Of a DNA stretch of 64,000 bases, positions 12,915-14,499 are shown piece by piece. The notes beneath the pieces were generated by a model. That model saw nothing but the letters and a program-made list of their open reading frames with translations, had not been told where the DNA came from and ran no database searches. Source of the stretch: an archaeon (GTDB taxonomy: Archaea; Nanobdellota; Nanobdellia; Woesearchaeales; UBA9642). Both the position numbers and the translations under genes were made by a program. Where the stretch lies: positions 1 to 64,000 of the forward strand of contig JAGVGF010000005.1 in assembly GCA_020057295.1 (NCBI GenBank). Reading direction: 5' to 3'. Position 1 is the stretch's first letter. Each line of letters begins with the position of its first letter.

Positions 12915-13748
12915 ATGGAAAATATTCATGCAAATCATAATAAAATTAATACCGGTTCTCAAGAGCATACTCCTGAACTCAAGAATGCTACACTGATTAC
13001 AGGCGCATCTTCAGGTATCGGCCTTGAATTTGCAAAGATATTTGCAAGACACGGACATAACCTCATTCTTGTTGCACGAAGTGAGGAAACTCTTAAATCT
13101 TTAAAAGAACATTTAGAAAAGAATTTTGGTGTTGATGTCAAAATACTCGTTCAAGATCTTAAATATTATAATGCTCCTCAAGCAATATATGATGCAGTTA
13201 AATTAGATAATATTAATGTTAACATCTTGGTTAACAATGCGGGCTTCGGAACATATGGCAAATTTTCTGATACAAACTTAGAGGCAGAGCTTGAGATGAT
13301 TCAAGTTAATATTACAGCATTAACACATTTAACTAAATTATTTTTGAAAGATATGATTACACATAATACTGGCAGAGTATTAAATGTTGCAAGTACTGCA
13401 AGCTTTCAACCAGGACCATTAATGGCAGTATATTTCGCTTCTAAATCTTATGTATTATCATTCTCCGAAGCTCTGGCTGAAGAATTAAGCAATACAAAGA
13501 TTAAAATTACAGCATTATGTCCTGGACCAACACAGACAAATTTTCAAAAGTCTGCAAATATCGATGATGGAAAATTATTCGGAAATAAAGATCCTACAGC
13601 AAAAGAAGTTGCAGAATATGGATATGACGCAATGATTCAAGGAAAAAGAGTTGCTGTTTACGGTCTAAAGAACAAATTCCTTGTACAAACCACAAGATTT
13701 ACTCCAAGAAACGTAATAACAAGAATAGTAAAGAAAATGCAAGAATAA
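12915..13748 (+). CDS. Short-chain dehydrogenase/reductase
   Basis: 277-aa classical SDR. NAD(P)-binding TGASSGIGLEFAKIFARHG (T-G-x-x-x-G-I-G), NNAGFG, catalytic Ser in NVASTAS and YFASKSYV (Y-x-x-x-K), then PGPTQTNF. An Arg in LVARSEETL after beta-2 hints at NADPH preference. The closest pattern is the DltE/YqjQ-like 'SDR family oxidoreductase' group; the substrate is unknown. Residues 1-22 form a polar extension. Shine-Dalgarno GAGGTG. The A/T-rich ATCTTTATATTC upstream is a probable TATA box. Confidence 0.88.
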   Translation: MENIHANHNKINTGSQEHTPELKNATLITGASSGIGLEFAKIFARHGHNLILVARSEETLKSLKEHLEKNFGVDVKILVQDLKYYNAPQAIYDAVKLDNINVNILVNNAGFGTYGKFSDTNLEAELEMIQVNITALTHLTKLFLKDMITHNTGRVLNVASTASFQPGPLMAVYFASKSYVLSFSEALAEELSNTKIKITALCPGPTQTNFQKSANIDDGKLFGNKDPTAKEVAEYGYDAMIQGKRVAVYGLKNKFLVQTTRFTPRNVITRIVKKMQE

Positions 13749-13770: not shown

Positions 13771-14499
13771 TTATTTTTCTAATAACATTTTCTTTGTTTG
13801 TGTATAAGATGTTCCATCGTTAAGTCTTACTCTTGCAACTAAATTATATATTCCAGAACTCAAGCCATTACCGTTAAACACTCCGTTATATGTTCCTGGT
13901 TTTAATTGTGAGTTAAATAATGTTGAAACTTCTCTTCCAAGAATATCATAAACTCTTACATCAACATTCGCATTTTCTATAACATCAAAAGATATATTTG
14001 TTTCTGGATTGAATGGATTCGGATAATTCTGATTTAATTTAAAATATGAAGGATTTCCAAGATTTGCAGCATTATTAACTCCTGTTGTTTTTCCTGTGAT
14101 TATGCTATCTATAGTCTTATACGTTACCGGTACATCTATTGTGCTGTCTGGAGCAAATCCTATCGTAAACATCTTTTCTTTAGGAATATTATCAACTATA
14201 GATTTTATTGAATCATTATGTGCTGTTTTAGGCATTAAGTAGAACGTGTTAAAAACCATTGAAGGATTATTTTGTTTTTTACCGAATGCTGACGGGACAA
14301 AGTTTGCCGTATCGTTTCCACTACCTAAATTTATACGATAATCTATACCATCACCATATTTTCCCTTCATAACGTAACCGTGATTCTTGAATTCTTGTCC
14401 TAATTGTTGGAATGCTTGATCTAGCTTAGACTGCGCATTAACTATGTATGATGATGCTAATAGTAATCCTGCAATTATTGTGTTTCGTATTATTTTCAT
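13771..14499 (-). CDS. Secreted protein with T9SS type A C-terminal sorting domain
   Basis: 242 aa. The signal peptide MKIIRNTIIAGLLLASSYIVNAQ ends in NAQ-S. The middle domain (about 25-150) is unrecognised. The last ~85 residues are a textbook Por/type IX secretion sorting domain: NYPNPFNPETNISF, VDVRVYDILGREV, LKPGTYNGVFNG, LSSGIYNLVARV and a KKMLLEK end. In Bacteroidota/Ignavibacteria this tail routes proteins across the outer membrane. Nothing else of that system is in the window, so in an archaeon the domain must be a transferred module with another role or a cell-wall beta-sandwich. Base composition matches its neighbours. The gene lies six bases downstream of the metalloprotease-like gene and is probably cotranscribed. 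Confidence 0.8.
   Translation of the reverse strand: MKIIRNTIIAGLLLASSYIVNAQSKLDQAFQQLGQEFKNHGYVMKGKYGDGIDYRINLGSGNDTANFVPSAFGKKQNNPSMVFNTFYLMPKTAHNDSIKSIVDNIPKEKMFTIGFAPDSTIDVPVTYKTIDSIITGKTTGVNNAANLGNPSYFKLNQNYPNPFNPETNISFDVIENANVDVRVYDILGREVSTLFNSQLKPGTYNGVFNGNGLSSGIYNLVARVRLNDGTSYTQTKKMLLEK

Follow-up and report, generated by a model that had tools for sequence, protein, structure and literature searches.

The window (the whole 64,000-nucleotide stretch of archaeal DNA analyzed here) encodes on its reverse strand a tail protein that consists of a signal peptide, a domain of about 125 aa with unknown function, and a T9SS type A sorting domain (CTD) at its C-terminus (Table 1). The putative Sec signal peptide, judged by eye, has a K/R start, a hydrophobic core, and an 'AQ'-type end (...IVNA followed by Q). 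The N-terminal domain has no Pfam or NCBIfam match in profile searches, and AlphaFold2 pLDDT is below 70 across this part of the protein.

Table 1. Genes and domains discussed in the text. Positions without a prefix are those of the window.
Feature	Position	Strand	Basis or description
Tail protein, 242 aa	13771..14499	-	ATG-start ORF; PF18962/TIGR04183 above cut-off
Putative Sec signal peptide, residues 1-22 (MKIIRNTIIAGLLLASSYIVNA followed by Q)	14434..14499	-	by eye
N-terminal domain, residues ~23-152	14044..14433	-	low-confidence model
C-terminal sorting domain, residues ~153-242	13774..14043	-	profiles, motifs, AlphaFold2 model
Upstream surface protein, 1297 aa	14508..18401	-	lipobox (LVGC), HELGGHGFGANH protease-like motif, Ig-like repeats
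Convergent short-chain dehydrogenase, downstream bound of unit	12915..13748	+	PF00106, E = 5e-48
Acetate kinase	window:18543-19973	+	
Lytic transglycosylase	window:31325-32338	-	SLT, E = 2e-17
DUF3108-like exported protein	window:32328-33455	+	E = 0.03
DUF3108-like exported protein	L142:12615-13523	+	E = 8.5e-5
Barrel-like AQ protein	window:56161-57231	-	
Barrel-like AQ protein	L017:12365-13708	-	weak OMP_b-brl match, E = 0.006
PorV/PorQ-family protein	L179:8847-9758 = G004:C1 about 237,850-238,760	-	NF033709
Orphan AQ family	L016:7911-9221	-	
Orphan AQ family	L129:6673-7743	-	
Orphan AQ family	L130:7686-8789	+	
Orphan AQ family	L143:5533-7104	+	
Orphan AQ family	L158:9525-10601	+	
Orphan AQ family	L159:9930-11105	+	
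Orphan AQ family	L160:5440-6966	+	
Orphan AQ family	L161:9593-11203	-	
Probable contaminant contig (G020:C4)	L146, 1-4118		

Sequence, position, and fold all identify the C-terminus of this protein as a genuine T9SS type A sorting domain. PF18962 matches residues 159-221 (E = 5.9e-9, 36.5 bits; curated GA cut-off 27 bits), and the TIGR04183 match (E = 6.1e-8, 32.5 bits; curated cut-off 23 bits) confirms the preliminary description, which had recognized a T9SS sorting domain in an archaeal gene. PF18962 is above its cut-off in none of the 14 named control genomes. The overall sorting-domain match covers residues 159-229 of 242, the landmarks NYPNPFNP, G188, G202, SG215-216, Y218, and a terminal KKMLLEK can be recognized, and the conserved lysine near the C-terminal end is present. 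An AlphaFold2 model, computed from an alignment with 43 bacterial tails, folds residues ~165-240 into a beta-sandwich of six to seven strands (pLDDT > 90), in agreement with a seven-stranded domain. Foldseek matches of this model include the T9SS-bound RemA CTD (8gl6_D), the best-scoring ones being other beta-sandwich proteins, and a sequence search against the PDB found the CTD chain 8glj_D. The tail is like the T9SS type A CTD (PF18962 Por_Secre_tail/TIGR04183) in profile, strict C-terminal position, NPFN and SG.Y motifs, C-terminal lysines, and beta-sandwich fold.

Only 8 bases separate the tail gene from the gene for the lipobox surface protein on the same strand, and the two are probably cotranscribed. 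The lipobox protein has no Pfam match, and its relatives occur in just two of the 192 other genomes of the order. It contains a metallopeptidase-like region (HELGGHGFGANHA...DIMG) with the spacing HExxxH, not HExxH. The GC3 of the tail gene (0.20) is the same as that of its neighbors (0.18-0.23), as the earlier claim of local base composition held, and this value rules out a recent unameliorated transfer. Archaeal neighbors had also been claimed, and RadA (TIGR02236) and ribosomal protein L3 (TIGR03626) are indeed found nearby by named archaeal models. The acetate kinase encoded in the window carries an extra N-terminal piece of ~85 aa that weakly resembles DUF5752 (22.1 bits; cut-off 23).

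The window's own genome (G000; 1.2 Mb, 6 contigs, 100% complete, 0.46% contamination) has five tails above the cut-off, each in a full-length open reading frame, on contigs C2, C3 (two), C4, and C5. Their flanks are archaeal by named archaeal models (RadA, L3, proteasome alpha, and Rrp41). Across the same archaeal phylum, tails above the cut-off are present in 34 of 371 genomes, an upper figure because some of the matches are probably contamination; the bearers include G004 (four matches) and G317, each assembled as a single contig. One 4.1-kb contig, G020:C4, has an insertion-sequence-like ORF and bacterial-like genes including a tail, and it probably contaminates an archaeal bin, so a context filter is needed when tails are counted across MAGs. 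The occurrence of five tails on four contigs, and of tails in genomes from other families that consist of one contig, means that a chimeric assembly at a single gene is no explanation for the window gene, and with the GC3 agreement it sustains the earlier view that the gene is integrated. The tail is a gene family in G000 that recurs in the phylum, often within a conserved operon, and it is no isolated oddity.

This operon, or cassette, has the order large surface protein, Ig-type protein, tail protein, and orphan AQ protein in G000 (contig C4), G216, and G224. The large protein has a C-terminal membrane anchor, and the Ig-type protein has CarboxypepD_reg/He_PIG domains (CARDB in G216). The tail protein (232-241 aa) and the orphan partner (356-436 aa) both have AQ signals. 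A rearranged cassette with the order partner, tail, Ig-type protein, and large protein occurs in G068, G289, and G090, so that an operon of tail, Ig-type surface proteins, and orphan is found in six genomes from three families. The window's own tail gene lies outside the cassette with no orphan gene beside it, and the pairing in G000 is on C4. Similarity of its N-terminal domain to the cassette tail proteins is marginal (pairwise z = 4.9 against G216) and has no HMM support, and membership in their family is not claimed.

The orphan partners have no Pfam or NCBIfam match and none to the PorV or PorP profiles. By profile, the family is found in eight archaeal genomes, the six with the cassette plus G073 and G226, and it is missing from all 20 Ignavibacteria/Bacteroidota genomes searched; judged from these sequences, it would be an undescribed family that is so far restricted to archaea. 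Its members share the motifs N[IL]xG, YGG, and LENxLRxxPR, with 58% identity between G216 and G224 and E = 3e-10 between G000 and G216. The tail gene adjoins the orphan gene in six of the eight genomes. In the other two, both single-contig, the partner cassette lacks a tail in the slot, so the orphan partner has a role without the tail. The cassette adjoins the exosome/proteasome cluster in both G000 and G073, which belong to different taxonomic orders, and this placement suggests an old residence in archaea. A strand-amphipathicity scan was also applied to the orphan family to look for the 14-strand beta-barrel of PorV/PorP carriers, and this method fails to separate known OMPs from other proteins.

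Purifying selection acts on the CTD in archaea, and the other parts of these proteins are less constrained. Between the two C3 paralogues of G000, the CTD is 82% identical with a dN/dS of 0.20, whereas the remainder is 31% identical with a dN/dS of 0.72; two G219 paralogues give 0.07 in the CTD versus 0.43 in the rest. Among 20 archaeal tails, 75% have K and 95% a basic residue at the C-terminal lysine position, and 90% end in K. The bacterial tails used for comparison were picked for their resemblance to the window protein, which makes the bacterial residue frequencies lean high. In bacterial CTDs, most of the conserved residues specify the fold, and conservation by itself therefore says little about binding. 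The C-terminal lysine is a nearly invariant residue in Flavobacterium, where it matters for function and is not fold-specifying (PMC10994853).

The preliminary description had suggested an exapted domain or transfer from a Bacteroidota partner. The nearest tails in GTDB do belong to Ignavibacteria/Bacteroidota and related bacteria (54% identity), which favors this source. The tail tree, based on 90 columns, is too poorly resolved to count transfers: 4 of its 101 branches are well supported, 11 label changes are needed at best, and a single archaeal clade of tails is not rejected (p-AU = 0.51). Bacteria have both the domain and its machinery in abundance, which points to transfer from bacteria to archaea, and the donor would have been Ignavibacteria/Bacteroidota-like. 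The N-terminal domain of the window protein is unmatched in the 80 nearest bacterial loci, and two loci considered as full-length bacterial relatives (L109 and L071) are unconvincing outside the CTD.

The search for T9SS machinery covered SprA, Omp85, Peptidase_C25, and PorV. SprA (TIGR04189) is found in none of 14 tail-bearing archaeal genomes, G000 among them, while the same search finds it in all eight Ignavibacteria, Bacteroidota, and Marinimicrobia control genomes. Omp85 (PF01103) is likewise found in none of the same 14 genomes, and diderm controls are positive. Peptidase_C25 (the PorU-type sortase) is not detected in G000; of the 16 genomes searched, 14 lack it and two, G119 and G068, have a match, and the family is broad and unspecific for PorU. 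A profile search for PorV in G000 is also negative. These results agree with the earlier claim that T9SS is absent. The window protein is thus unlike T9SS type A cargo in that its host is archaeal and that SprA, Omp85, a C25 sortase, and PorV are not found in its genome, and on these four counts it does not qualify as cargo of a known T9SS.

Several proteins encountered in these searches deserve mention. A 303-aa PorV-family protein of G004 matches NF033709 with E = 9e-14 and 51.8 bits, below the curated cut-off of 90. This complete, single-contig genome combines a distant PorV-family protein with four T9SS-type tails. G000 itself encodes two barrel-like proteins with bacterial-style AQ signal peptides (Table 1), and an AlphaFold model of the one in the window, computed alone, has a pLDDT of 29.

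We consider it reasonably likely that the tail is a laterally acquired sorting domain that has been exapted for cell-surface docking or attachment without a T9SS translocon. Lateral transfer from a source resembling Ignavibacteria/Bacteroidota would have brought the CTD into the archaeal lineage, where it would then have been copied into the five proteins of G000 and retained by selection without any of the searched T9SS parts. A tail protein would cross the single membrane by Sec, and its CTD may fold outside, bind a surface receptor, and be held there with the Ig-type membrane-anchored surface proteins. That the tail is kept by selection, often beside an archaeal partner gene, suggests that it probably has a new archaeal cell-surface job.

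In bacteria, the binding partner of type A CTDs is PorV, and type B CTDs remain attached to PorP-like proteins as surface anchors (PMC9143113, PMC12618676, PMC10994853). A bacterial CTD gene can lie beside its receptor gene and is often nearby (PMC9143113, PMC12618676). If the cassette is analogous to the CTD-PorV and CTD-PorP pairs, then the likely receptor would be the orphan AQ protein encoded beside the tail gene. The archaeal arrangement is like CTD-PorV and CTD-PorP/SprF in that a CTD gene is found beside the gene for an exported protein, the proposed receptor, and in that tail-bearing G004 encodes a distant PorV-family protein. It is unlike them in that the partner has no PorV or Pfam profile match, SprA is absent, and the receptor is putative. 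By this analogy, it resembles the anchoring half of a CTD system without the translocon.

The CTD could instead be a generic Ig-like beta-sandwich that serves as an adhesin or spacer with no specific receptor, which we regard as possible though unlikely. Weak FlgD_ig matches in three other G000 tail proteins, the broad beta-sandwich structural matches of the CTD, and the abundance of Ig-type domains in neighboring genes are all compatible with such a module. However, the CTD is strictly C-terminal and keeps its terminal lysines, it evolves under tighter constraint than the remaining protein, and in three archaeal families it is tied to a single specific operon. It is very unlikely that a T9SS or an outer membrane exists in these archaea in hidden or strongly diverged form, with the tail still acting as a secretion signal. 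The below-cut-off PorV-family protein of G004 and the barrel-like AQ proteins, one with a weak OMP_b-brl match, would fit this explanation, but neither SprA nor Omp85 is detected in 14 genomes by searches whose controls are positive, PorV is absent from G000, and a PorU-type peptidase is absent from 14 of 16 genomes.

A recent, neutral gain of whole bacterial genes that are functionless in the archaeon is highly improbable. The 54% identity of the CTD to an Ignavibacteria tail might suggest it, but the purifying selection on the CTD, the paralogue expansion, the local base composition, and an N-terminal domain unmatched in the nearest bacterial loci argue otherwise. Bacterial contamination or chimeric contigs in these metagenome-assembled genomes probably do explain some matches in the phylum, such as the 4.1-kb contig of G020. 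As an account of the window gene, this is scarcely credible given the five tails on four contigs in a genome with 0.46% contamination, the archaeal flanks (proteasome alpha, Rrp41, RadA, and L3), the tails of G004 and G317 (one contig each), the shared position of the cassette next to the exosome/proteasome cluster in both G000 and G073, and a GC3 equal to that of the neighbors.

A T9SS sorting domain is usually taken as a marker of T9SS cargo, and automatic annotation will label the archaeal tails 'T9SS type A sorting domain-containing'. Here selection maintains the CTD in genomes in which neither SprA nor Omp85 is found, and the domain is operon-linked to an apparently undescribed, archaea-only family. 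If the docking proposal is correct, then the ancestral property of the CTD may be surface receptor binding that can be uncoupled from translocation. The small archaea would in that case possess a system for surface attachment made of Bacteroidota parts, a possible handle on partner contact. A bolder and rather doubtful idea is that DPANN-type archaea have their own translocon-free sorting module in which CTD-tagged exports are held by dedicated barrel-type receptors (the orphan AQ proteins and the G004 PorV relative). This would imply that an archaeal envelope holds barrel proteins while having no Omp85, or that it has an unseen outer layer.

The sole archaeal precedent found is a table entry for Thermoprofundales (MBG-D archaea), in which a C25 peptidase is annotated with a Por C-terminal sorting domain (PMC6461988). 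That entry is like the present case in that such a domain is annotated in an archaeal genome, and it differs in that it is a single table row on a C25 peptidase from another archaeal group, left without comment in the passages found. A literature search, with subscription papers and preprints outside its scope, found no paper joining DPANN or Woesearchaeales with T9SS, and a conserved archaeal CTD cassette without detectable T9SS appears to be undescribed in the literature so covered.

DUF3108 is a bacterial-type family, and DUF3108-like exported proteins occur in two of these archaea, one of them encoded in the window (Table 1). The window also encodes a lytic transglycosylase with an apparent export signal in this archaeal genome; peptidoglycan-cleaving enzymes of bacteria-killing archaea have been published (PMC12352652).
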